Shown here: positions 9,247 through 22,262 of the stretch, piece by piece
How positions within the stretch are numbered: the first letter of the stretch is position 1
How the letters are laid out: each line of letters opens with the position of its first letter
Origin: a virus
DNA length: 22,966 bases
Strand: one strand, 5' to 3'
IMG/VR virus record: IMGVR_UViG_3300034102_000510
Coordinates: 1 to 22,966 of that record
Program-made: the position numbers and the translations under genes
Notes under the pieces: generated by a model
Told to the model about the DNA's origin: nothing
Seen by the model: the letters and a program-made list of their open reading frames with translations, nothing else
Databases searched by the model: none

Positions 9247-9542
9247 GGCGCGTCGCTGATCTAGCGGTGATGATGGGCGTGCCTCCAGACTCCATCACGG
9301 ATGATCCCGAGATGTTTGACGCTCTGGAGGACGCTGTCATCCGCCACGAGACGCGGTGGTCGCAGTCGGATGAGTTGCTTGCTTCCATCCTTGAACTGCT
9401 GCACGCGCTGTATCTACTTACTGCAAAAGCCAATGGTGCCAAGAATGTTGGTAAGCCATTGCATGTTCCGCGCCCGCATGAGAAGGATCTCAGGCCGAAG
9501 GCGATGACCCCGCGAGAGTTCGCACTGAAATCTAGGAGTTGA
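9010..9542 (+). CDS. Tail assembly chaperone, -1 frameshift form (gpGT-like)
   Basis: Ribosomes slipping -1 at 9234-9240 would read AAC CCT as AAA CCC and continue from T9240 as YLRRVADLAVMMGVPPD, giving about 177 residues (77 from the first frame, 100 from the second). The second frame has stops at 9195-9197 and 9204-9206 and is then open, so slippage must occur after 9206. The extension contains DSITDDPEMFDALEDAVIRH and a basic end (HVPRPHEKDLRPKAMTPREF), as in other T-domain extensions. The first ATG in the second frame (9270) has no ribosome binding site, which supports expression by frameshift only. Confidence 0.82.
9234..9240 (+). promoter_or_regulatory. -1 ribosomal slippery heptamer A AAC CCT
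   Basis: This fits X XXY YYZ in the zero frame of the short chaperone, two codons before its stop. A 7-position stem (9251-9257 with 9263-9269, two G-T pairs, loop GATCT) lies 10 bases downstream and may stimulate slippage. Confidence 0.78.
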
Positions 9543-9544
9543 GC

Positions 9545-12500
9545 GTGGCTGGTCAAAGTGCTGGCGTAGGTCGCCTTTGGGTTGCTGTTGATGCCAACAT
9601 CGGTCCTGCGATCACGAAACTGGATCTTCTCGACAAGAAGGTCCGCGAGGTCAAGAACAACATCAACACGATGGGTGGTAACGCCAACGCTACGGCGTCG
9701 GGGCTGCAGAAGACTGCCGCTGCTGCGGGCAAGGTCAGCACCGAGGCGAACAAGGCCGCGCGGGGTGTCGCCGAGGTTGGGCTCCGCGCTCAGTCGGCAG
9801 CCAAGCCAATGAAGGCTCTGGAAGCCGCCATGTTCCGCTCCTCGCAGGCATTCATCAACCTGCGCTACGGAAACCCGCTCGGCTTCCTCGCTGGTGCGAG
9901 CCAGGCTGCGGGTTCGCTCGGCACTGCACTCAAGGGCATAGCCCCCGCTGCTGGGGGTGCCGCTGCTGGAATGGCTGGGCTGATCGCGGCTATCGCCGCC
10001 GCACCAGTCGTTGTCGGTGTTGCTCTCACGGGCATCGGTGCGGCTATCGCCAAGTCTGGTGTTAGTGCTGCCGCCGATCTCGAGCAGTTGAAGATTTCGT
10101 TCGAGGGCATGCTGGGCTCTGCTCAGGCAGCCACAGAGGAAGTCGCGTTCCTGCAGTCGCTTGCTCAGACGAGCATTGTGCCGACCGACCAGATCATGGA
10201 GGCTAACCGCCAACTCATGGCGTTCGGCATCACCAGCCAGACCATGCGCCAAGACCTCGTCAAGTTCATGGCTGACTACGGGTCGGCGGTGAACCTGTCT
10301 ACTGGGCAGATTCAGGGCCTGGCTTACGTTATCGGTCAGATCAACGCACAGGGCAAGGCGTACACGCAGGACATCAAGCAGTTGGCGAATGCCTCGATTG
10401 GCATTGACAAGTTGGCTAAGTCACTGGGGATGACCACTGGCGAGTTCCAGAAGATGGTTGCCTCGGGTAATGCGACCGCTGACAAGTTGCTTCCCGCGAT
10501 CGTCAAGGTGGGTAAGTCGTCCGAAGAGACCGCCAAGAAGATGAACGAGTCCGCCAAGGGCATGATCTCGAACATCAAGGACATTGCCAACGTCAAGATG
10601 TCTAACGCTTTTGGTGGGTTGCTGGCGTCTCTGAAGCCGATCCTGCAATGGGTGAAGGACTTCATCAAGGCTTTCAACTTCGAGTACATCGCCCAAGCCT
10701 GGGAGCAGGTTGTTGGGTACTTCAAGCAGTCTATGGGCGACATGGGCGCCGACGCTGAGGGCACCGCTGCGAGCATTTCGCAGACCATTGCCAAGGCGAT
10801 CAATCTCATTGGTTACGTTGCCTCGATCACCTTTGCGGTGATGCGTGCGCTGTGGAACACCTTCATGTTGGTGGTCAACGGCGTATGGGCTGCAATCCAG
10901 TTGGTCGTCGGTCAGGTGCTCGACAAGTTGGGCGGCATCATCGAGGTTGCCTCGTATGTGCCTGGCCCGTGGCAGGATGCTATGAAGTCCGCTACCGAGT
11001 CGATCAAGACGATGGCGAACGCTGCGGTCGAGGGTGCCAACATCGCTGGTGGCGCATTCGTCAATAGCGCGGCAGCGGCAGGTAATGCCTGGGCTGGCTT
11101 GGTGATGAACTTCCCGAAGTTCAAGGAAGTCTCTTTCGGCAAGAACATCGGGTACACACCTGGCGGTAACGGATTCAAGACAAGCCCTACTCCTGGTTTC
11201 GAGGATACTGTCGGTGATACCACTGGCGATTCCAAGAAGGATCCGCGCCTGAAGAAGTGGCAAGAGTGGATCAAGTTCATGCGTGAACTGATCAACGACT
11301 TCAAGGAAGCGCTCAAGGAACTCAAGGGGCTCACCGCTCAGCCGTTCGGCGAGATGAGCAAGATCGCTGAGGCATTCTCCTTCGGAGACGCTTCGTCGAA
11401 CTACCAGGGCAACATCAAGTCGATCATCGGCATGTTCGACACCGTGTCTGCTGCGATCACCAAGTACTACAGGGTCTTTGCAAGCCCCAAGGCTGGTGGC
11501 AAGGCTGCTGCCGCTAAGGCAGCCGCCGAGCGCGACTCCATGCTGAACCGCTTGAAGGAAGACACTCAGCGCCTGGTCGATCTCGCTCGCGAGAACGAGC
11601 GGATTGCTAAGGAACTCGATACCTGGCAGAAGACCGAGACTGACCGTCTGCAGTCGCAGATGGACGCACTCGACGCCGCCTACAACGGCACCTTCGATGC
11701 CCGTGGGTACGCCATTGAGGGCGCGATCTCCAAGGCACAGTCCATGCTCGACAAGGCCACCCAGGCATACGACGACGCTAACGCGAAGTTGGCCGACCTG
11801 GTGTCCGCTCGTGATGAGTTCCTGAACGGAATCCGCGACTCTGCTCGTTCGTTCGTCAATGCACTTGAACTGTCCGCGAAGACGATCACCGAGTATACGC
11901 GCCTTGACAACGTCGGCTCGTTCATCTCCACGGAGAAGCAGAAGACTGCATCTCTCAAGGATCAGATGGCCGAGCGTCTCCAGACGCTCAAGGACTGGGC
12001 TGCCAACATCAAGGCCCTACAGGCCAGGGGTCTGAGCAGCACGCTGCTGCAGGATCTTGTTTCGCAAGGCCCCGAGGCCACCAGCCAGGTCATGACCGAT
12101 CTGGTGAACGGTTCGCAGCAGTCGATTGACGAGATCAACTCGATTCAGACCGAACTCGCTTCGGTGACTGCAGGTATCCAGCGGAACGCGTCGCAGACGT
12201 GGTTCGATGCGGGGATTGCTCAGCAGCAGGCGTTCGTCAATCAGATGCAGATCGCTAAGGATGCTGCGAATCAGGCGCTGCTTGATACGCAGGCTGCCTA
12301 CCAGATGAAGAAGGCAGCGCTCGATGCTGACCTCAAGGCTGTGGCAGATGCCACTGACGCTCACTCGCTGGTGCTCAAGGCGCAGTTGGAAGCCAACGCT
12401 AAGACGGCGGCTGACATCAGTGCGTCCATCGAAAAGAGCCTGGCGAAACTGACGGACCCGAAGAACCCGAAGAACACCGCGATTCTTGGTAAGAACGCGA

Positions 12501-12874
12501 TGGATGGGTTCATCAAGGGTCTCGAGGAGATGGAGCCGTTGGTTGTTGCGGCGGCTGAGCGCATTGCGAACAAGGTCTCTTCAACGATCTCGAAGGCCCT
12601 CAAGATCAACTCTCCATCGAAGGTGATGGAGCAGTACGGCGCTTGGGTGGGCGAAGGGCTTGCAATCGGCATGGAGTCGTCACTCTCCCGCGTGGAGGTG
12701 GCTTCGCTCAACATGTCGAACGCAACTCTTCCGAGCCTCAATGGATCAGGCCAGTCGGTGCCTGATGTTCGCGTCTACATCGGCGACCGTGAACTGACGG
12801 ACATGATCGATGTCCGTGTCGCGGCTGCCGACGGCAGTTCGCTCAACTATGTCACTTCGGGTAGGAGGTACTAA
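9545..12874 (+). CDS. Tape measure protein
   Basis: A 1109-residue protein that sets tail length and lies in the tube lumen. GTG 9545 is preferred to TTG 9539, because AGGAG (9534-9538) is 6 bases from the GTG but directly abuts the TTG. Residues 1-110 are helical. A hydrophobic Gly/Ala segment spans about 131-169 (GLIAAIAAAPVVVGVALTGI). A conserved tape-measure N-terminal domain covers about 178-325 (DLEQLKISFEGMLGSAQAA, QLANASIGIDKLAKSLGM). A second hydrophobic cluster is at about 418-469. Long charged coiled-coil helices fill about 650-1000, and the familiar INSPSKVMEQYGAWVGEGL motif is at about 1021. It is the longest gene in the window; no lytic transglycosylase or peptidase domain is seen. 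Confidence 0.96.
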   Translation: MAGQSAGVGRLWVAVDANIGPAITKLDLLDKKVREVKNNINTMGGNANATASGLQKTAAAAGKVSTEANKAARGVAEVGLRAQSAAKPMKALEAAMFRSSQAFINLRYGNPLGFLAGASQAAGSLGTALKGIAPAAGGAAAGMAGLIAAIAAAPVVVGVALTGIGAAIAKSGVSAAADLEQLKISFEGMLGSAQAATEEVAFLQSLAQTSIVPTDQIMEANRQLMAFGITSQTMRQDLVKFMADYGSAVNLSTGQIQGLAYVIGQINAQGKAYTQDIKQLANASIGIDKLAKSLGMTTGEFQKMVASGNATADKLLPAIVKVGKSSEETAKKMNESAKGMISNIKDIANVKMSNAFGGLLASLKPILQWVKDFIKAFNFEYIAQAWEQVVGYFKQSMGDMGADAEGTAASISQTIAKAINLIGYVASITFAVMRALWNTFMLVVNGVWAAIQLVVGQVLDKLGGIIEVASYVPGPWQDAMKSATESIKTMANAAVEGANIAGGAFVNSAAAAGNAWAGLVMNFPKFKEVSFGKNIGYTPGGNGFKTSPTPGFEDTVGDTTGDSKKDPRLKKWQEWIKFMRELINDFKEALKELKGLTAQPFGEMSKIAEAFSFGDASSNYQGNIKSIIGMFDTVSAAITKYYRVFASPKAGGKAAAAKAAAERDSMLNRLKEDTQRLVDLARENERIAKELDTWQKTETDRLQSQMDALDAAYNGTFDARGYAIEGAISKAQSMLDKATQAYDDANAKLADLVSARDEFLNGIRDSARSFVNALELSAKTITEYTRLDNVGSFISTEKQKTASLKDQMAERLQTLKDWAANIKALQARGLSSTLLQDLVSQGPEATSQVMTDLVNGSQQSIDEINSIQTELASVTAGIQRNASQTWFDAGIAQQQAFVNQMQIAKDAANQALLDTQAAYQMKKAALDADLKAVADATDAHSLVLKAQLEANAKTAADISASIEKSLAKLTDPKNPKNTAILGKNAMDGFIKGLEEMEPLVVAAAERIANKVSSTISKALKINSPSKVMEQYGAWVGEGLAIGMESSLSRVEVASLNMSNATLPSLNGSGQSVPDVRVYIGDRELTDMIDVRVAAADGSSLNYVTSGRRY

Positions 12875-13656
12875 TGGCTCTAGGTGAGATCACCTTCACC
12901 TCGGAACTGGACCCGACTTCGCGCTGGGTTGTTCTTACGCTCACGTGCGAAGGCATGACCGAAGCGACTATCAACCGACTCACCCCCGACGGTACGCAGG
13001 CTGTTCGCGGGGCCTTCAAGAAGGAAGCGGTCAACTCTCTGATCGCTGCCGACTACGAGGCCCCGCAGAACACGCCGATTTCGTACTATGCGGTGGTCAG
13101 TGACGGCACCCAGACTCGTAACTCGGATCTGGTAACACTTTCAGGCGAGATCGATCGCGGCGGTGATGTCGTGTTCGGGCTCACTAACCCGCTCGCCGTT
13201 CAGAAGGTAATCGTCGTCAGTGTCCCAAGCCTGGTGTCTGAGAGCCGTCAGGATGTTGTGCAGGTTGTCGGTCGCCGTGATGCGGTGGTCGTATCCGACG
13301 TGCGCTCCTTCCCTACAGGGACTCTCACACTCGCGACCCTCACCGATGGGGAGCGCTTCGGCCTCTACCAACTGTTGAACGACGGTGGGCTGCTGGCCTT
13401 CTCGCCGCATCAGCCGAACTATGGCTTCTCCGACGTGTGGTATCTCGCGGTTGGCAATGTCACGGAGCGGCGTATTTCGCCTATCGGGCACGCCCCCGAG
13501 CGCTACTTCGATCTCGAGTTCCGCCGTGTCGCACCACCGCCCGCTGACTTCGTCGGCCCCGCCTTCCGCACTTGGGGAGACCTCTGGTCGGAGAGCGTGT
13601 CGTGGGACAGCCTTAAGCAGGCAGGTATAACCTGGCTGAGACTGCAGGTGAAGTGA
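12874..13656 (+). CDS. Distal tail (Dit-like) minor tail protein
   Basis: A 260-residue beta-rich protein. Its ATG shares the last base of the tape measure stop (TAATG), with AGGAGG 5 bases before. The N-terminal region (LGEITFTSELDPTSRWVVL) opens a long all-beta protein with two halves: an Ig-like first part to about residue 95 (YYAVVSDGTQTRN) and a second part holding VVSDVRSFPTGTLTLATLTD and VWYLAVGNVTERRISP. It ends AFRTWGDLWSESVSWDSLKQ. The gene directly after the tape measure is normally the distal tail protein forming the hub at the tail tip. Assignment is from position and fold-like pattern. Confidence 0.75.
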   Translation: MALGEITFTSELDPTSRWVVLTLTCEGMTEATINRLTPDGTQAVRGAFKKEAVNSLIAADYEAPQNTPISYYAVVSDGTQTRNSDLVTLSGEIDRGGDVVFGLTNPLAVQKVIVVSVPSLVSESRQDVVQVVGRRDAVVVSDVRSFPTGTLTLATLTDGERFGLYQLLNDGGLLAFSPHQPNYGFSDVWYLAVGNVTERRISPIGHAPERYFDLEFRRVAPPPADFVGPAFRTWGDLWSESVSWDSLKQAGITWLRLQVK

Positions 13657-14882
13657 TGCTGGGTGCAAGCGATAAGTTCAAGACGCATCTGCGGTCTTCT
13701 CACAGCCGCAGGGTCCGCATCGGGCTGTACCTCCCCAACGAGTTGGGGGAGTACGAGTTCAACGGTCACTTCGGTGTAGTCGACGGAACGCTGACGATTG
13801 ACAACTCCCGCAACATCGTGCGGCAGGCTCAGATGCAGGTGTCTACCCTCGAGTCAACCATCGCAAGTGCTGTCACTGGCGACGCGGCCCGTGACTTCTT
13901 TGAGGCGCTCACAGCGAAGTCCGCTGAACTTGAGATCGAGTGGGGCTTGATCTACCCAGACCTCTCGGAGGAGTGGGTGACGTTGGCGCGCTTGCGCGTG
14001 GACGAGTCCGTGAAGGCTGCTGTCTCAGGCTCGCTGCAGGTCACTGCGGCGTACGATCCTGGTACTCGGATTGCAGACTTCTACCTCATCACTCCGTATG
14101 CACCGTTCAGCATCGACAACACGAAACTGACGTACCTAGAGGCCATTCAGGATCTAGTCAACGTGGCATACCCCAGCACTAACCCGCCCGAGTGGATCAT
14201 CAACGAAGGCGTCGATGGAACGTCCCTTCCGCCTGACGGCACTGTCTTCACTGGCAGCCGTTGGGATGCGATTCAAGCACTCGCGGTAGCAATCAACACC
14301 CGCGTGGCACCCGATCATCTCGGGCGGTGGACGGTGCAACCCGTGGTCGACAGTCACATTCCAGTGTGGGAAGTTGACGCTGGCGATAGCGGCGTGCTGG
14401 TCTCGGAGGAGACGACGTTCTCGCGACGTGAGCAGTACAACGCTGTCGGCGTTCGCTGGGAATCTCCCAATAGCGGCGGTGGCATTGTGTACCTTGTCGA
14501 CTCTGATCCCGAGTCGCCTACGTACTTCGATGGACCGTTCGGGCGCAAGCCTCGCCCCGAAGAGACGGTGTCAACCATCACCACGGAGGCGCAGGCTCTT
14601 GATGCAGCGCGTTCCTTGCTCGACAAGTACAAGGGACAGACGCGCGGCATTCAACTGCAGACGCTGCACAACCCGCTGATGGAACCTGGCGACGTGATTG
14701 CGGTGCAACTTCCTGACAACACCATTGAGCGTCACATCATCGACACGCTGTCGATCCCGTTGGCGGGCGGCGTGATGAGCATGCAGACGCGCGTGGTTCG
14801 CAGCAGCGGTGGCACGTACGACGCTGACGGAATCAACTACGGAAGCCCTGCACACACTTACGACGGTCACCCGACTGCCTGA
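13656..14882 (+). CDS. Tail tip/baseplate minor tail protein (Tal-like position)
   Basis: A 408-residue protein. ATG 13656 (TGATG overlap) is chosen over GTG 13653, which lies too close to the AGGTGA at 13646-13651. The opening LGASDKFKTHLRSSHSRRVR and following GVVDGTLTIDNSRNIVRQA resemble the DUF5047-type tail proteins of actinobacterial phages and prophages. The middle (RWDAIQALAVAINTRVAPDH, RWTVQPVV) and the C-terminal part (LDAARSLLDKYKGQTRGIQL, NPLMEPGDVIAVQLPDN) are the hub-like folds seen in Tal/gp27-related proteins. No peptidase motif is visible. It probably closes the tail tip and carries the fibre proteins encoded next. Confidence 0.72.
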   Translation: MLGASDKFKTHLRSSHSRRVRIGLYLPNELGEYEFNGHFGVVDGTLTIDNSRNIVRQAQMQVSTLESTIASAVTGDAARDFFEALTAKSAELEIEWGLIYPDLSEEWVTLARLRVDESVKAAVSGSLQVTAAYDPGTRIADFYLITPYAPFSIDNTKLTYLEAIQDLVNVAYPSTNPPEWIINEGVDGTSLPPDGTVFTGSRWDAIQALAVAINTRVAPDHLGRWTVQPVVDSHIPVWEVDAGDSGVLVSEETTFSRREQYNAVGVRWESPNSGGGIVYLVDSDPESPTYFDGPFGRKPRPEETVSTITTEAQALDAARSLLDKYKGQTRGIQLQTLHNPLMEPGDVIAVQLPDNTIERHIIDTLSIPLAGGVMSMQTRVVRSSGGTYDADGINYGSPAHTYDGHPTA

Positions 14883-14892
14883 GAAGGAAACT

Positions 14893-16530
14893 ATGCCTAC
14901 ATTGGTTAAGAACGCGGACCTCACAGTGTCCTTAGTGGTTACAGGGGCCAACTTCGCCTCTCACATGACTGTGCAGATAGATCGGATGAAGGTGCCGTAC
15001 ACGGAGTTCATCAACTCTGGTGAGTTCAGGTCGAACAACTTCGACCAATCAAGGTACGCCGAAGGTGTTCACCTCGTCAGAGTTGGCAGTAGTGCTTACT
15101 GGTCCAATGAGGTGCCCTTTACCATCGGCTCCGTAACCTCACCGCCTGTCGCTCCTGTGTTGAACTCACTCACTCCGTCGCAGATCGACCCGCCCGCAAC
15201 TGACCCGACCAAGATCACCCTCACAGGACTGAACTTCGCCGCAGGCTGCGGGGCCTACTTCGATGGCGTGGCTGTTCCGACAACCATCATCAGCAACTCG
15301 ACTGCGGAGATCCTGGTCCCCGCCTCGATGCTGCCTGGGAACTCGGCGCATACGGTCAAGATCGGATACGTCTCGCAGGGCATCTGGTCGAACGAGAAGG
15401 TGTTCATCGTTACCCCGCCGCCGCCGTTCATTTCTTCGCTGTCGCCAGTCACAATCACTAGCGCGCAGGCTGCCGATGGGGAGACTGTCACGATCACTGG
15501 CGGTAACTTCCTGACCGCCCCGACCGTGGCTGTCGATGGTGTCAGCAAGGCTTCTACGTTCGTGTCGGCGAGTTCAATCACCGTTGCACTGGCCGCTGCT
15601 GACCTGGCAACTGGCGACCACACCGTCAAGGTGACTAACACCGACGGCAAGTCCAGCAACGTGATGACGCTGACTGTGGAGCCGCCTGCCCCGCCTGCTG
15701 ACCCGACCCTGACCAGCCTGACCCCCGCGTCGATCAACCGTCAGATGATGGCTGACCCGACCATCGTGGTGTTGAAGGGCACTAACTTCCGTGACGGCAT
15801 GGTTGCCAAGATCGACGGAGGCGCGGCCCTGCGCTCACTGACGTTCGTGTCGGCCACGGAGATGCACCTGTCTGTGCCGCGCTCACTGGTTTCGACTGCT
15901 AAGACGTACACCGTCGAGGTCGGTATGACGGGGGAGACGTTCACGGCGTCGAAGAACCTGGTCGTGACCGCCGTGAACCCGACGATGGTGTCCGTTACGC
16001 CTGCTGCTCCCGCTTGGGAGTCCATCACCGACCCGATGGTGGTCACCCTCGCTGGAACGCAGTTCACCCCGAACATGACCGTGACCCGCACGGGTACTTC
16101 GGTGCCGTTCACGTTCGTGTCAGCGACCAGCGCCACGGTGTCCCTGCCGAAGTCGCAGTACGCCCCGTTCACGGCCTACGAGTTCAAGGTTGGCGTCCCC
16201 GCTAACTCGGTCCTGTCGAATGGCCGCACGGTGTCTGTCGCCCACGCCAAGCCGAACCTGACCTCTGCCACCCCGAACTCGGGTGTCACGGGTGGCACGG
16301 TTGCCGTGACATTCGCTGGCACGCTGTTCGCCTCTGGCCTCAAGGTGTACCTCGATGGCACCGATGTCGGAGCCGCTACTGGCGTCACCTCGACTGCTGC
16401 TTCGTTCAACCTGAACCTGGCGACTGTCGCCGCTGGCGCTCACACGCTGGCTGTCGGCTACTCGGACGCGAAGTCGAACACTGTGCCGTTCACGGTCGCT
16501 GCTGCTGACGCACCCGTGGTGACGGCCTAA
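14893..16530 (+). CDS. Minor tail protein made of six IPT/TIG Ig-like repeats
   Basis: A 545-residue protein built almost entirely of immunoglobulin-like IPT/TIG units. The ATG at 14893 follows GAAGGAAACT. Repeat starts are near residues 5, 89, 177, 271, 363 and 454, a period of about 90. Each of repeats 2-6 opens with a phrase like LTSLTPASI, then [T/A]xTGxNF (LTGLNF, ITGGNF, LKGTNF, LAGTQF, FAGTLF), a VDG/FDG turn and an AHTVKIGY-like closing strand. Three repeats share the DNA string ACGTTCGTGTC (15556, 15841, 16111), coding TFVS, which suggests recent internal duplication. It probably forms a stalk or surface adhesin at the tail tip. IPT repeats bind glycans or act as spacers in other systems; no ligand can be inferred here. 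Confidence 0.82.
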   Translation: MPTLVKNADLTVSLVVTGANFASHMTVQIDRMKVPYTEFINSGEFRSNNFDQSRYAEGVHLVRVGSSAYWSNEVPFTIGSVTSPPVAPVLNSLTPSQIDPPATDPTKITLTGLNFAAGCGAYFDGVAVPTTIISNSTAEILVPASMLPGNSAHTVKIGYVSQGIWSNEKVFIVTPPPPFISSLSPVTITSAQAADGETVTITGGNFLTAPTVAVDGVSKASTFVSASSITVALAAADLATGDHTVKVTNTDGKSSNVMTLTVEPPAPPADPTLTSLTPASINRQMMADPTIVVLKGTNFRDGMVAKIDGGAALRSLTFVSATEMHLSVPRSLVSTAKTYTVEVGMTGETFTASKNLVVTAVNPTMVSVTPAAPAWESITDPMVVTLAGTQFTPNMTVTRTGTSVPFTFVSATSATVSLPKSQYAPFTAYEFKVGVPANSVLSNGRTVSVAHAKPNLTSATPNSGVTGGTVAVTFAGTLFASGLKVYLDGTDVGAATGVTSTAASFNLNLATVAAGAHTLAVGYSDAKSNTVPFTVAAADAPVVTA

Positions 16531-16571: not shown

Positions 16572-17090
16572 ATGGCAAGCAACTACCCAGCAGGTTACGA
16601 CAACCTGAATAACCCCACAGCAGGCGACCCGCTGGACTCTCTTCAAGTCCCTCACGCCGAACAGCATGCGAATGCAAACAACGCGGTGGAGTCCATTCAG
16701 CAGGTGCTCGGCACAAACCCGCAGGGGCGTTTCCCCACCGTTCGCGATCGCCTCGCCGCCATCGAGGGTACGGGCGATGAGGGCAACAAGATCACGCATC
16801 TGACCGACCTTTGGGACGTGGATGTAACTGACCCCGTCACTGACGGTGCTCTCCTCACCTACGACGCAACCGCTGAAAGTTGGGTGGCTGGGTCAGCAGG
16901 TGAGGCAGCGCCCTCAGCACTCGGTGACCTGTCGGATGTCACTCTGACAGACCCGCAGGTTGGTGATGTCCTCACGTGGGACGGTACCGCGTGGGTAGAA
17001 GGTGCAGGCGCGAAGGGGTACACGGTCAGTGATCGTGTACCGACCGCAAGCGATGGTTCCGACGGGGACATGTGGGTGACGCTGCCGTGA
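16572..17090 (+). CDS. Tail fibre/tip adaptor with two 42-residue repeats
   Basis: A 172-residue protein; AAGGGAG precedes the ATG. The opening MASNYPAGYDNLNNPTAGD, followed by a short helix (AEQHANANNAVESIQQVLG), is a common start of actinophage tail fibre proteins and probably trimerises. Two tandem repeats follow at about 74-106 and 116-146: LTDLWDVDVTDP...LLTYDATAESWV and LGDLSDVTLTDP...VLTWDGTAWV. The protein stops at SDGDMWVTLP, a phrase that in many fibre proteins continues into further sequence. Here the next gene begins in a GTGA overlap with KNAGEW, so the two may work as one fibre made from two chains. Confidence 0.75.
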   Translation: MASNYPAGYDNLNNPTAGDPLDSLQVPHAEQHANANNAVESIQQVLGTNPQGRFPTVRDRLAAIEGTGDEGNKITHLTDLWDVDVTDPVTDGALLTYDATAESWVAGSAGEAAPSALGDLSDVTLTDPQVGDVLTWDGTAWVEGAGAKGYTVSDRVPTASDGSDGDMWVTLP

Positions 17091-17881
17091 CAAGTGCAAT
17101 CCGAGTGAAGAATGCTGGCGAATGGGTACAGGTGTATCCGCATCCGCCGCTACCTATAGCACCCGTGCTGACGGCGACAGGAGTCGGTAATGGCATCAGT
17201 CTGACTTGGACTGCTGGCACAGTGGCAGCGGGCTCGATCGGGTCTTATGAGGTCGAGAACGTTCCCGTGCCGTACAACGAGGCGACTGGCGGCACGATGA
17301 CTACCTACACCTCTGATGGCAGGAAGTTCGCTCGGCACACCTTCACCGCCAACGGCTCCCTCAATGTCGTCAAAAGCCCTAACCCGTTCTACGTCTACCT
17401 GATCGGCGGCGGAGGCGGCGGAGGCAAGAACGGCTTTGACGGCGGTGGCCCCCATGGCGGCGGCAAGGGTGGTGGCGGTGGCTACTACATTGGCGAAGCG
17501 GTTGGCGTTGCCATTGGGGCTGCGACCATCACGGTAGGTGCTGGCGGCTCTGCTGGCACTGCCCACGCTGGCGGCCCTGGCGGCGACTCGATTGCCCTTG
17601 GATTCACTTCTGGCGGCGGCGGTTACGGCGCGTGGGGCCAGGATGCAATCACGGGCGGCGATGGCCGACCTGGCGTACCTGCTCCCGCCGCTAACGGCGG
17701 CAACGGTGGCGGCAACAATCACCCGCAGACCAGCCCTTGCACAGGCAAGCAGGCCGCACTTGGGCTGGCAACAACCGTTGGCGAAGGTGGCGCAGGTGGC
17801 GCGCCAGACGGAGGGCAAGCCTCCATTCCTGGTCAGGCTGGCAATGCTGGCGCAGTTGTCGTGGAGTACGAGGTGGCCTAA
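17087..17881 (+). CDS. Glycine-rich tail fibre protein A with the N-terminal half of an FN3 domain
   Basis: A 264-residue protein; GTG 17087 overlaps the previous stop (GTGA) with GGTGA 7 bases upstream. Residues 5-12 are RVKNAGEW. Residues about 22-56 (APVLTATGVGNGISLTWTAG to GSIGSYEV) are the first strands of a fibronectin type III domain that then stops short. At 62-69 PYNEATGG opens a glycine-rich fibre module: a strand region, VYLIGGGGGGG from about 105, Gly-rich loops to about 250, and the closing AGAVVVEYEVA. The module resembles the glycine-rich domain found at tips of many phage fibres. The missing second half of the FN3 domain is at the start of the next gene. Confidence 0.75.
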   Translation: MTSAIRVKNAGEWVQVYPHPPLPIAPVLTATGVGNGISLTWTAGTVAAGSIGSYEVENVPVPYNEATGGTMTTYTSDGRKFARHTFTANGSLNVVKSPNPFYVYLIGGGGGGGKNGFDGGGPHGGGKGGGGGYYIGEAVGVAIGAATITVGAGGSAGTAHAGGPGGDSIALGFTSGGGGYGAWGQDAITGGDGRPGVPAPAANGGNGGGNNHPQTSPCTGKQAALGLATTVGEGGAGGAPDGGQASIPGQAGNAGAVVVEYEVA

Positions 17882-18642
17882 TGACTATTGACAACGTTGG
17901 CAACGTACTTGCCAAGACATACACAAGCCTCACGCCTGGCACTTCCTACGCCTATCGCGTGCGCGCAGTGTCCGCTGAGGGCAGGCGCTCCGCCTGGTCG
18001 AACGTCGCTGTAGCAACAGCACTGGAACCGTACAACGCGGCGACTGGTGGCACTGTGACCGACGTTACGAACTACAACGGCACGGGCCAGAAGTGGCGCG
18101 TCCACAGGTTTACGGGGAACGGCACGTTCACCGTGTCTACGGCGGCGCAACCGTTCCGCGTGTTTGTTTGTGGTGGCGGCGGCGCGGGCGGCGGCGCTGA
18201 TAATGCAAGGCACTCCCAAGGCGGAGAAGGCGCCTACTCCCTTACCAACGACAGTAAGGCGATTCCTGTCGGCGCCCATAGCGTCGTGGTGGGCGCTGGC
18301 GGCGCTCCTGTCGGTTGGGGCTACGCGGGTGAACGTGGCGGCACAGGAGGAACGTCAAACCTTGGCAGCGTCGCAACGGCTCAGGGCGGGCTCGGCGGGT
18401 ACTTCCCGTCGGCTGGTGAACCTGGCACGGGCCGCAACGTGACCTCCACAATCTCGGGCGCGTCGGTGACCTACTGCCAAGGCGGCGCGGGTATGGGATG
18501 GCCGCAACCAGCAAGCCCGCCCGCGAACAGCGGCACTGGAGGGCATTCCGGCTACACCACAGCGGGCGGCGCTCCCGGCTCGGGATACCAAGGCGGCGGC
18601 GGCGCGACGGGTGTCGTCATCGTCGCGTATCGAATCGGATAA
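17881..18642 (+). CDS. Glycine-rich tail fibre protein B starting with the C-terminal half of an FN3 domain
   Basis: A 253-residue protein. Its ATG shares the last base of the preceding TAA (TAATG), and GAGG at 17870-17873, inside the last codons of gene A, is its probable ribosome binding site. Residues 1-47 (VLAKTYTSLTPGTSYAYRVR, AVSAEGRRSAWSNVAV) are the last strands of an FN3 domain with no first half. PYNAATGG at 50-57 opens a glycine-rich module like that of gene A, ending TGVVIVAYRIG. The sequence could be the displaced C-terminal part of an original FN3-glycine-rich fibre gene. Whether it is translated and assembled cannot be told from sequence, but the frame is intact. Confidence 0.72.
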   Translation: MTIDNVGNVLAKTYTSLTPGTSYAYRVRAVSAEGRRSAWSNVAVATALEPYNAATGGTVTDVTNYNGTGQKWRVHRFTGNGTFTVSTAAQPFRVFVCGGGGAGGGADNARHSQGGEGAYSLTNDSKAIPVGAHSVVVGAGGAPVGWGYAGERGGTGGTSNLGSVATAQGGLGGYFPSAGEPGTGRNVTSTISGASVTYCQGGAGMGWPQPASPPANSGTGGHSGYTTAGGAPGSGYQGGGGATGVVIVAYRIG

Positions 18643-18650
18643 GGAGCAGT

Positions 18651-19418
18651 GTGGGTATCTACATCAAAGAAGCGGGCGAGTGGCAGGAGATCGGCCCCGC
18701 TAACCCGCCGAGCGTCAAGCAGAAGATGATCGGCAGCGGCGGAACCACGTCGTTTGTGTTCATCAACGATGTCCTTCACGCACTCCATGTTTTCAAGGCC
18801 AACTCATCGTTCATCTGCACCGCAGCGGGATCGGTCGAGTACGTCGTTGTAGGTGGCGGCGGTAACGGCGGAGCGTGGGCTGGCGGCGGTGGCGGAGGTG
18901 TTCTCACGGGAACCAAGGCGCTCACCCCCCAGACATACAACATCGTCATCGGTGCACCAGGCGCAGACACCACGTTCGCTGGCCTCACAGGCGGCGGCGG
19001 CGGTGGAGGTGGCGGCGGCACTGGTCGAGCCACTAACGGTTCTGGCGGTGGTGGTGCGTACCTGGACGGTGCTGGCGGTGGAACCGCTGGCGGCGGTGCA
19101 GGCAGTGGTGCTGGTAAGGCTGGCGGGGTTGGCGGTCAAGGTGCCGACTACGGCGGTAACGGCGCGGGCGGCGGTGGTGGCGGCGCTGGCGGTGTCGGTG
19201 GCAACTTCGGCTACCGAGGTGGCGGCGCTGGCGGTGTTGGCCTCGAAAGCCTGATCACAGGAACCGCGCTCATCTTCGGTCGAGGTGGAGACGGGGCGTG
19301 CCCGAATGAAGCAGGCCAAGGACTCCGCTCACCAGAAGCCAACAGTGGCGGTGGTGGCTCGGGTCGGGCTACTGGTGGCGCAGCAGGCGTCGTCATTATT
19401 CGTTATCCAGTCGAGTAG
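18651..19418 (+). CDS. Glycine-rich tail fibre protein C
   Basis: A 255-residue protein; AAGGAG (18641-18646) precedes GTG 18651. The frame extends further upstream, but that part lies inside gene B. Residues 1-12 (MGIYIKEAGEWQ) correspond to the RVKNAGEW start of gene A. There is no FN3 segment: a short linker (GPANPPSVKQ) leads to a strand region (VLHALHVFKANSSFICTAAG) and then a very glycine-rich body from about residue 66 (EYVVVGGGGNGG), closing AAGVVIIRYPVE. The G-rich sequence makes long proline-rich antisense frames that are not genes. It is probably a third receptor-binding or tip-decoration module. Confidence 0.75.
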   Translation: MGIYIKEAGEWQEIGPANPPSVKQKMIGSGGTTSFVFINDVLHALHVFKANSSFICTAAGSVEYVVVGGGGNGGAWAGGGGGGVLTGTKALTPQTYNIVIGAPGADTTFAGLTGGGGGGGGGGTGRATNGSGGGGAYLDGAGGGTAGGGAGSGAGKAGGVGGQGADYGGNGAGGGGGGAGGVGGNFGYRGGGAGGVGLESLITGTALIFGRGGDGACPNEAGQGLRSPEANSGGGGSGRATGGAAGVVIIRYPVE

Positions 19419-19911: not shown

Positions 19912-20175
19912 ATGCCACAGCAGTACACCCCGTCGGGATCATCCCAGTCGTACACGATTCCCGAGTATGGCGACATCGTCGACGGTGAGACCGTCTTCCG
20001 CACTTACAGCGAAGACGTGGATCGCGCAGTGCAGACTCGCATCGGTAGCGCCGACGCCAGTGTCACTCAAGCGTCCACAAACCTCGCAGTGCTGCGCAAC
20101 ATCACCGTGTCGACTGCCGCGCCAGCGGGCAATACGGTCGGTATGGACGGCGACATCTGGTTCGTGTACGTCTGA
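19912..20175 (+). CDS. Short fibre adaptor ending in DGDIW
   Basis: An 87-residue protein; AAGGAG precedes the ATG. It begins MPQQYTPSGSSQSYTIPEYG and has an acidic helical middle (GETVFRTYSEDVDRAVQTRI). After TVSTAAPAGNTVGMDGDIWF it ends VYV. Its end matches that of the 16572-17090 protein (SDGDMWVTLP). As there, the next gene starts in an overlap (TGATG) with repeated KxxGxW segments. It is probably a second, shorter copy of the same fibre-adaptor design. Confidence 0.7.
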   Translation: MPQQYTPSGSSQSYTIPEYGDIVDGETVFRTYSEDVDRAVQTRIGSADASVTQASTNLAVLRNITVSTAAPAGNTVGMDGDIWFVYV

Positions 20176-20771
20176 TGGCGGCATCGAAGATCAAGGCTGC
20201 GGGGCAGTGGCATGACACTGCGAATGCGTTCGTCAAGGTCGACGGTGTCTGGCGGACCGTTACCGCGTCGTACGTGAAGACCCCTGGCGGCTGGGGACAG
20301 GGCACCATCGGGCAGCCGCCTGCAGCACCCGTGATGAAGCACACTGCGACGGGCAAGTTCACCATCCAGAATTACGACGCCACGCTCGCGTACACGACTG
20401 TGCGAGTAGCAGGCGGCGGCACTGCTTCCCGCAGCGGAGCGGTCGTAACACTGTCGGATGTCAATGCACGGTTCAGCATCACTGCTGGGTATGCGGCGTC
20501 CTCTCCGCAGTCTGGCCTCGGGTACTTCGAGCGCAAGGCGTACACCTACACCGACGGCGGTCAGTCGTGTTCCCCGAACTGTCGCCCCATCTCAGGTAAC
20601 TGTTTCAATGGCACAGGTTCGTGCCAGGGAGACGGTTCGTGTGGGGCTGACGGCACCATCTGCTGCGGTGGATCAATGGGCTCTACCTGCACTGACAACC
20701 CTGACATCAAGGACAACTACGGCCCGCAAGGCTACGTCGATCAATTCGGAGAGTGGGCAAAGACGGTATGA
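20175..20771 (+). CDS. Tail tip protein with KxxGxW repeats and an eight-cysteine segment
   Basis: A 198-residue protein starting in a TGATG overlap. The N-terminus has three short repeats: KIKAAGQW, FVKVDGVW and YVKTPGGW. Residues about 55-120 are Ig-like (TGKFTIQNYDATLAYTTVRV, GAVVTLSDVNARFSITAG). From 132 to 172 there are eight cysteines with spacing C-x3-C-x6-C-x6-C-x5-C-x6-CC-x7-C, among Gly, Ser and Asp. The protein ends VDQFGEWAKTV. The Cys-rich part could be a small disulfide knot or a metal site on the outside of the tail tip. I recognise no named family for it. Confidence 0.7.
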   Translation: MAASKIKAAGQWHDTANAFVKVDGVWRTVTASYVKTPGGWGQGTIGQPPAAPVMKHTATGKFTIQNYDATLAYTTVRVAGGGTASRSGAVVTLSDVNARFSITAGYAASSPQSGLGYFERKAYTYTDGGQSCSPNCRPISGNCFNGTGSCQGDGSCGADGTICCGGSMGSTCTDNPDIKDNYGPQGYVDQFGEWAKTV

Positions 20772-21094
20772 ACATGACAATCCCCCGAGGGGCGAACCTC
20801 ATTCTCGAGTTCGAGTTGCCATTCACTGACCCGCCCGAGTCAACCGTGCACCTGAACACTAAGGGTGAGGAACTTGCGTTCTCACACTACGGTGAACTCG
20901 TAGCGTCGCTAGACCGCGTCAACAACGCCGACGTGCTCAAACTCATGCACTACAACTCGAAGTGGTGGATCAGATACGAGAGCCCCGTGCCCTCGTTCCT
21001 CCCAGACGGTGTGTCCGAGTACGAGTTCATTGTCGTAGGGATGGACGACGAAGTGGTGATGCAGGAGTCAGGCACGGTGACCATCGATGGCTAA
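20768..21094 (+). CDS. Small beta-rich hypothetical tail protein
   Basis: A 108-residue protein. ATG 20768 overlaps the preceding stop by ATGA and is favoured over the open frame from 20753. Strands dominate: MTIPRGANLILEFELPFTDP, a middle with LAFSHYGELVASLDRVNN, then WWIRYESPVPSFLPDGVSEY and FIVVGMDDEVVMQESGTVTI. No family is recognised. The context (end of the fibre block, continuous overlaps) suggests a structural or assembly role. Confidence 0.65.
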   Translation: MNMTIPRGANLILEFELPFTDPPESTVHLNTKGEELAFSHYGELVASLDRVNNADVLKLMHYNSKWWIRYESPVPSFLPDGVSEYEFIVVGMDDEVVMQESGTVTIDG

Positions 21095-21362: not shown

Positions 21363-22262
21363 TTGCTCGGTATGCACTTCACAGGCTGGGAGAACGAGCC
21401 GTGGGTAGATGGCCCGACTCACGTTCGTCTGTGGGACAACGGTGTCTCATGGCGCGCTATCCACACGGCAGTAGACACGTACAACTGGGATCGCCTTGAC
21501 GCGATGGTGGACTTCTACACCGCCAAGGGCGTCAAGATCACATACGTCGCTTGCGCGACTCCGCAATGGCTGGCGATGGACCCGCACGCGCCGCACTTCG
21601 CGCCGTGGCTGGGCGAAGGTAGCAACTCGTTGCCGTATGACATTGACGAGTGGAACAAGTTCATCTGGAATCTGGCGACCCGCTACCAGGGCCGCATCCA
21701 CTACTACGAAATCTGGAACGAGCCGCAACTGGCCGACTTCATGTACCCGTATGACACTTCGACCTGCAACCGCCTGGCGACGATGACTCAGCGTGCGAAG
21801 AACACGATTGACTCGATCGACTCTGCCGCCATGGTGATCTCGGCGTCGGTGTTGCCGCGTCCGTCGTCTGGTGGCATGGACAAGGCGACGAAGTATCTAA
21901 CGGCTCTCAAGGACAAGGGCTGGCCTGTCGACGCATACGCCTGCCACATCTACCCCGAGGTTGGCTACTGGGCACCGCGCTGGCGCGACTACTTGGAAGC
22001 CGTGAAGGACAAGTTGGCCGCGCTGAACGCTCCGAACAAGAGCAAGGTCTGGGTGACGGAGACAACTTACGGCCTACTCGGTGACCCGATTCCCGAGGAG
22101 AAGGGTAACGACGTCGTAGACCAGACGTATCAGCACGCAGAAGCCCTTGGGGTGCAACAGATTTACTGGTACGCGTGGAATCGCCCCGACCTCGGTGGCT
22201 TGCAGATCAAGGACGGCAGCACCGCTTGGGCTGCGATCAAGAGAAATGGAAACCCGTCATGA
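21363..22262 (+). CDS. Clan GH-A glycoside hydrolase, probable cell-wall glycosidase (lysin)
   Basis: A 299-residue single-domain (beta/alpha)8-type glycosidase. The TTG at 21363 is used because AAGGAG lies 5 bases upstream; ATG 21372 would be 14 bases away. The acid/base Glu120 is in YYEIWNEPQLADF, the characteristic NEP of clan GH-A, and the likely nucleophile Glu233 is in KVWVTETTYG. Supporting motifs are HVRLWDNGVSW, VKITYVACATPQW, YACHIYPEVGYW and the late IYWYAWNRPD. There is no signal peptide. Placed before an M15-type peptidase endolysin, it is probably the glycan-cutting half of a two-gene lysin. A tail-borne exopolysaccharide depolymerase is the alternative. The bond attacked cannot be read from sequence. 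Confidence 0.8.
   Translation: MLGMHFTGWENEPWVDGPTHVRLWDNGVSWRAIHTAVDTYNWDRLDAMVDFYTAKGVKITYVACATPQWLAMDPHAPHFAPWLGEGSNSLPYDIDEWNKFIWNLATRYQGRIHYYEIWNEPQLADFMYPYDTSTCNRLATMTQRAKNTIDSIDSAAMVISASVLPRPSSGGMDKATKYLTALKDKGWPVDAYACHIYPEVGYWAPRWRDYLEAVKDKLAALNAPNKSKVWVTETTYGLLGDPIPEEKGNDVVDQTYQHAEALGVQQIYWYAWNRPDLGGLQIKDGSTAWAAIKRNGNPS

Follow-up and report, generated by a model that had tools for sequence, protein, structure and literature searches.

The window analyzed here, a 22,966-base IMG/VR virus record, closes its tail module with a gene whose 198-residue product packs eight cysteines into 41 residues. We consider it probable, at roughly two chances in three, that this protein is a distal tail adhesin in which a variable, host-contacting knob held by four disulfides is carried on an Ig-like stem, with many unrelated counterparts upstream of DUF6171-like genes. 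The cysteine set, the scaffold around it, the variable but even cysteine numbers of its relatives and the gene order are all read from sequence, and from these we infer the disulfides, the position in the virion and the receptor contact of the window protein.

The cysteine-rich gene and its surroundings

The features referred to below are listed here by their positions in the window. L numbers denote individual loci or contigs.

20175..20771, plus strand: 198-residue tail-module protein with a cysteine-rich insert (open reading frame, translation, relatives)
20187..20303, plus strand: N-terminal repeat segment, residues ~5-43, a possible attachment part that other tail-module proteins also have (PHROG matches; putative role)
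20310..20546, plus strand: Ig/FN3-like beta-sandwich, residues ~46-124 (pLDDT ~90 over residues 51-100; Ig/FN3 matches)
20568..20690, plus strand: cysteine-rich insert, Cys132 to Cys172, eight cysteines, no histidine (translation; low pLDDT)
20568..20570, plus strand: Cys132, predicted partner of Cys172 (joint loss in L143; L142 strands)
20688..20690, plus strand: Cys172, predicted partner of Cys132 (same grounds)
20724..20762, plus strand: signature PxGYxDx[YF]GEW, residues 184-196, C-terminal here (invariant columns in alignments A1 and A4)
20768..21094, plus strand: 108-residue gene between the cysteine-rich and DUF6171-like genes, with relatives in L141 and L143
21087..21293, plus strand: 68-residue, six-cysteine DUF6171-like protein, the conserved neighbor (phrog_13558, E 1.4e-13)

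In the translation, the cysteines occupy positions 132, 136, 143, 150, 156, 163, 164 and 172, and the location and spacing that a sequence-only reading had given for them (x3, x6, x6, x5, x6, 0, x7, at 20568-20690) proved exact. All eight are kept in two near-identical contigs (99%). With 24 other, hand-picked window genes as background (34 cysteines in 6,633 residues, or 0.51%), the probability of at least eight cysteines in 41 residues is about 4e-11, and it is about 3e-11 once four further open reading frames are added to the background. The same reading had described the remaining tail genes of the window as poor in cysteine, which is borne out by the 0-3 cysteines in each tail-module gene between 9539 and 20175. 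The sole other cysteine-dense gene in the window is the DUF6171-like one.

The tail module includes a tape measure gene (9539-12874) and a tail protein (13653-14882, phrog_1887), and tail-fibre matches were also found upstream of the cysteine-rich gene. A 573-residue IPT/TIG-domain protein (14809-16530; PF01833, E 1e-27) lies in the same module. Three consecutive glycine-rich genes with long glycine runs (17072-19418) precede the cysteine-rich gene; they match PF21722 (the middle one over the cut-off), phrog_2295 (all three) and phrog_863 (two). While sharing the tail module with the cysteine-rich gene, these glycine-rich tail fibre proteins have 1-3 cysteines and, unlike the window protein, no cysteine-rich insert. 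Three short genes separate the trio from the cysteine-rich gene, with which the tail module ends. A C-terminal GDxW motif (variants GDIWFVYV, GDVWYVVP and GDIWLVYTP) is common to genes upstream of the cysteine-rich gene in the window (19912-20175), L145 (5684-5995) and L144 (3694-4467), and the window copy matches the end of a phrog_14064 tail fibre (E 1.7e-5).

On the other side, the 108-residue gene had no match among 57 intervening open reading frames of other loci. The DUF6171-like protein has CxxC motifs and scores 26.8 bits against PF19668, whose curated cut-off is 27. Past the tail module, a GH39-like glycosyl hydrolase (21363-22262; 25.1 bits, cut-off 26; Glyco_hydro_cc 21.2 bits, cut-off 21) perhaps serves lysis or depolymerisation, and the gene after it has no Pfam or PHROG match. 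Among the isolate records searched, the window terminase is nearest to that of Pontimonas phage phiPsal1 (47%), which hints at an actinobacterial host, short of establishing one.

A scaffold family with a variable insert

The family is defined here by an Ig-like domain, an RKxY strand, a cysteine-rich insert and the PxGYxDx[YF]GEW signature, all of which the window protein has in alignments A1 and A4, with the insert situated between the Ig-like domain and the signature. A scan for GYxDx[YF]GEW returned 15 stretches, eight of them members and seven unrelated. The members were the two near-identical IMG/VR contigs together with L127, L129, L130, L132, L135 and L137. These last six, more distant contigs supply five distinct versions, as the proteins of L130 and L132 share 97% identity, and the window's own makes six. 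An alignment search with A1 confirmed seven contigs, L135 not among them, and found none new, and a looser end motif yielded no further family member among 13 new loci. Identity to the window protein in A4 is 48% for L142, 47% for L141 and L143, 35% for L145, 32% for L144 and 30% for L135. The signature is not always the C-terminus, as 132 residues come after it in L144. In isolate phages, tblastn with the whole window protein gave no match at E 1e-3, nor did the L130 version and the L129 segment at E 0.1. With E allowed up to 10, the C-terminal part hit 129 isolate records, the best 40 among them having E 4-10; these were taken as chance, and the one that was checked runs antisense to two minor tail genes. 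Two scans of a bacterial and archaeal genome collection confirmed no relative.

Across both alignments the scaffold is constant and the insert variable. The insert holds 8 cysteines in the window, 10 in L142, 8 in L143, 6 in L135, 14 in L145 and 12 in L144, all of them even numbers; beyond it there are two more in L143 (near an uncertain start), three in L135 and one in L145. Conservation of the cysteines in homologues, on which the sequence-only reading had staked its proposal, thereby holds in part: cysteine-rich inserts are kept, but the numbers differ and only C136, C156 and C164 are invariant in A4. Judged by these sequences, it is the cysteine-rich state that is conserved in distant relatives, not the eight-cysteine set as such, its number or its spacing. 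A block within the insert, DGxCxADxTICCGGSxG, is shared by the window, L141/L142 and L143, which make up three of the six versions. The spacing was also searched for in viral_contigs as a DNA pattern covering the first seven cysteines, and at least 120 stretches with at least 200 places were returned; all 55 in-frame open peptides appeared by eye to be chance cysteine-rich or repetitive ones, with no likeness to the window protein. Since the near-identical relatives of the window were also absent among the open frames listed, this pattern search is uninformative.

The clearest hint as to pairing comes from L143, which is 65% identical to L142 and has all ten of its cysteines except the outermost two. 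In A4 these two align with window Cys132 and Cys172, and their joint absence therefore points to a Cys132-Cys172 bridge. In the L142 model, strands 94-101 and 156-163 flank the insert and carry C100 and C157, and the two strands probably pair with each other. Of the disulfides or metal that the earlier reading had envisaged for the dense segment, disulfides are thus likely, as favored both by the even counts in all six versions and by the loss of the first and last cysteines as a pair. A distinctly unlikely alternative is metal binding, with zinc or an iron-sulfur cluster coordinated by the cysteines and the insert as a metal-stabilised loop. Clusters made of cysteine only can bind either, the conserved neighbor is a six-cysteine protein with CxxC motifs and possibly of a metal type, and the inserts of some relatives contain 1-3 histidines; the window insert has none, however, and the loss in L143 is pairwise rather than by fours.

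The AlphaFold model of the window protein includes a confident Ig-like domain, with pLDDT ~90 over residues 51-100, for which a fold search returned generic Ig/FN3 matches (best Z 6.7). Fold searches as a whole, with queries larger than the insert, gave generic Ig, FN3 and cadherin matches. There was no match with E <0.001 in a viral structure library and no Pfam family for the window protein up to E 1. PHROG matches are confined to the first 43 residues, with phrog_36019 at E 5e-7 on residues 7-42 and phrog_21772 and phrog_25859 weaker; all three are of unknown function. phrog_25859 was also hit by the cysteine-dense proteins of L226 (together with phrog_36019) and L170. The insert itself has pLDDT ~35 in the window protein (residues 131-170) and ~43-59 in L142, so that a knob fold is putative, and this counts against the disulfide-knob reading. 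A confident prediction of disorder had been named beforehand as evidence against a knot-like segment, and the value of ~35 amounts to low confidence from eight sequences, not to confident disorder. It does lend something to the view, highly improbable in our estimate, that the insert lacks a defined fold, being a disordered linker rich in Gly and Ser whose cysteines are incidental; the cysteine density at the window's own rate, the even counts in six of six distinct versions and the block kept in three of them all argue against this.

According to the disulfide-knob reading, the N-terminal repeat would probably attach the protein to the tail and the Ig-like domain would serve as stem. The loop of 40 residues between two strands would form a small knob with four intramolecular disulfides, its base closed by the Cys132-Cys172 bridge, and this knob would be the fast-changing part and the probable site of host contact. 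Cysteine-dense tips of unrelated sequence would be carried by many uncultivated phages on proteins encoded at a shared genomic position, upstream of DUF6171-like genes. The sequence-only interpretation is supported in part, and the protease-resistant receptor-binding tip that it had pictured stays a proposal.

Cysteine-dense genes upstream of DUF6171-like genes

As in the window, the cysteine-rich gene is located two genes upstream of a DUF6171-like gene in L140, L141, L143, L144 and L145, and by profile such a gene is present in five of the seven family records. The L130 contig stops soon after the cysteine-rich gene, and the 48.8-kb record of L135 has no DUF6171-like match, which argues against a strict link.

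Two IMG/VR scans were made with the DUF6171-like gene as anchor, each keeping the best 80 of at least 600 matches, so neither set is random. Genes were called by simply picking the longest ORFs, without a trained gene finder, and counted as cysteine-dense when they had at least six cysteines in 60 residues. After removal of 10 loci without an upstream gene, 70 remained in set 1 (best 80 of at least 600), and 41 of these had a cysteine-dense gene at -1 to -3, or 39 of 70 once a second DUF6171 copy (L166) and an HNH/zinc type (L172) were removed; by comparison, 6 of 276 downstream genes (+1 to +4) were cysteine-dense. L166 also has a real six-cysteine gene of the dense kind that the pipeline missed and that stands outside both the 39 of 70 and the parity counts given below. 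Set 2 (again the best 80 of at least 600) was reduced to 66 by leaving out three loci shared with set 1, ten of the same DNA and one without anchor, and then to 62, since four had no upstream gene; here 43 of 62 had a cysteine-dense gene at -1 to -3, against 0 of 239 downstream genes. The sequence-only reading had called a dense cysteine motif uncommon in phage tail proteins. This is correct within the window but does not extend to IMG/VR contigs with the DUF6171-like neighbor, in which cysteine-dense genes are common at this position.

These cysteine-dense genes have no evident common scaffold with the window protein, as judged on visual comparison and from the absence of its motifs in the set-1 loci among the matches listed. 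Non-redundant proteins from both sets (best 80 each), 70 in all after four redundant ones were dropped from set 1 and eight from set 2, share a general layout: the last cysteine is at most five residues from the C-terminus in 58, the tip ends in cysteine in 35, and a P-, T- or F-rich linker stands ahead of the cysteine cluster in 43. When 30 of the 70 were scanned against PHROG, five matched tail families (L204, L209, L210, L218 and L225) and 21 had no match, so the label "tail" is mainly positional for this wider set. PFFPPFFPP-type repeats occur before the cysteine-rich end at the same genome position in L161, L166, L180, L187, L237 and L307, with PPVTPP, TTTT or TPTP repeats in their place at other loci. 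An apparent Hint/intein-like C-terminal domain, called by eye and with a loose pattern rather than a Pfam profile, was seen in the cysteine-rich proteins L160 1683-3986, L165 1248-3161 and L170 1796-3160.

The largest cysteine cluster is predominantly even in number. In set 1 (best 80 of at least 600), 33 of 35 were even at gaps 20 to 60, 29 at gap 15 and 26 at gap 12, as were the totals of 28 of 35 whole proteins. Several gaps had been tried in this set, and gap 25 was then fixed before set 2 (best 80 of at least 600), in which 33 of 35 main clusters were even, as were all 35 at gap 15 and 34 at gap 20; of the 35 whole proteins, 28 had even totals. Pooled over both sets (best 80 each), this gives 66 of 70, or 26 of 27 when similarity groups are counted by their first member, the fairer figure because 36 of the 70 proteins form one such group. 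Control genes from set 1, a small and not clean sample that may include proteins of the same kind, had even totals in 54/86 (at least 4 cysteines), 24/56 (at least 5) and 24/38 (at least 6), and even clusters in 21/29, 10/18 and 10/13, respectively. Cluster size was 2 modulo 4 in 38 of the 70 proteins (best 80 each), which speaks against tetra-cysteine metal sites as a general answer and weighs further against metal binding. Published work takes even against odd cysteine counts as pointing to disulfide use (PMC3177088), and since, by the same source, bridges between molecules permit odd counts, even counts favor pairing within one chain.

A reciprocal search, using one tip type as query and ignoring the neighbor, found a DUF6171-like gene 0.57-0.63 kb downstream in 16 of 16 loci. 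Four of these had already come from the DUF6171 scans, three of them the query's own, so the agreement stands at 12 of 12 new contigs, whose tips, among those listed, represent seven distinct sequences. Isolates with DUF6171-like genes include T4-like cyanophages and Stenotrophomonas phages. Among selected genes in five isolate DUF6171-like regions, none but the DUF6171-like ones reached six cysteines in 60 residues, S-IOM18 having one gene with five in 60, two genes upstream. The annotation of phage Moby has no tail gene near its DUF6171-like gene (cysteines were not counted there), and the picked open reading frames of phiPsal1 contain no DUF6171-type motif. What the link to the neighbor reflects may be the end of the tail module and not a common function. 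Openly licensed PMC papers yielded nothing for DUF6171.

One point against a disulfide knob is that the cytoplasm in which phage proteins fold is reducing. One proposal that takes this into account, which we hold to be unlikely, is a general hypervariable disulfide-knob system of uncultivated phages, serving for host contact, in which cysteines are gained and lost in pairs on unrelated stems, the DUF6171-like protein being a dedicated redox or metal helper that would allow the knobs to form, or keep them unlocked, in the reducing cytoplasm until release.

Relation to known systems and biological meaning

Phage tail adhesins are a known kind, and no earlier description of such cysteine-rich tips was found in openly licensed PMC papers; passages from PMC5313236 and PMC12750041 proved unrelated to cysteine-rich tail tips. 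Inhibitor cystine knots and WAP domains are, like the window insert, small and cysteine-dense with an adjacent CC pair. Knottins have the order C-C-CC-C-C, with two cysteines past the pair and connectivity 1-4, 2-5, 3-6, and the WAP four-disulfide core has eight cysteines, likewise two past the pair. The window insert fits neither order, Cys172 alone coming after Cys163-Cys164, and phmmer matches to antileukoproteinase were at chance level (E 4.9 and 8.1).

Disulfide-linked phage virions exist (PMC10491603; PMC10811340), and Milano shows that functional disulfides can be borne by phage virions. The Agrobacterium phages Milano and 7-7-1 are tailed, as is the window phage, but the virion disulfides described for them are only predicted here. 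They have many-subunit networks of bridges, with cysteine raised across the structural proteome (2.4% in Milano structural proteins; PMC10491603), whereas the window has one dense gene with a variable insert and 0.51% cysteine in 24 other genes. Their extensive inter-subunit disulfides provide a precedent for a reading we regard as rather unlikely, in which the cysteines form intermolecular bridges that lock tail subunits together, Milano-like, with no receptor role. That 35 of the 70 wider tips (best 80 each) end in cysteine agrees with such bridges. Confinement of the cysteines to one tail gene, at a background so far from the Milano value, does not, and the even counts favor intra-chain pairing (PMC3177088).

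A likeness to the disulfide-knob reading is offered by bovine antibodies with cysteine-rich CDR H3, in which an Ig-type domain likewise carries a variable cysteine-rich loop, there disulfide-bonded, and in which the shorter CDR H3 are reported to prefer an even cysteine total (PMC7366855). The analogy is one of working principle, without homology, and no somatic diversification is known in the window system.

If the disulfide-knob reading is true, an even-numbered cysteine cluster just upstream of a DUF6171-like gene could be used as a finder of host-contact genes in uncultivated phages, and such variable, compact and stable scaffolds would make useful natural binder libraries. It would also raise the question of how the knob forms despite the reducing cytoplasm, and of whether the DUF6171-like neighbor is involved. 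It would mean that many uncultivated phages tune host contact by small, disulfide-locked tail peptides, akin to some antibodies.
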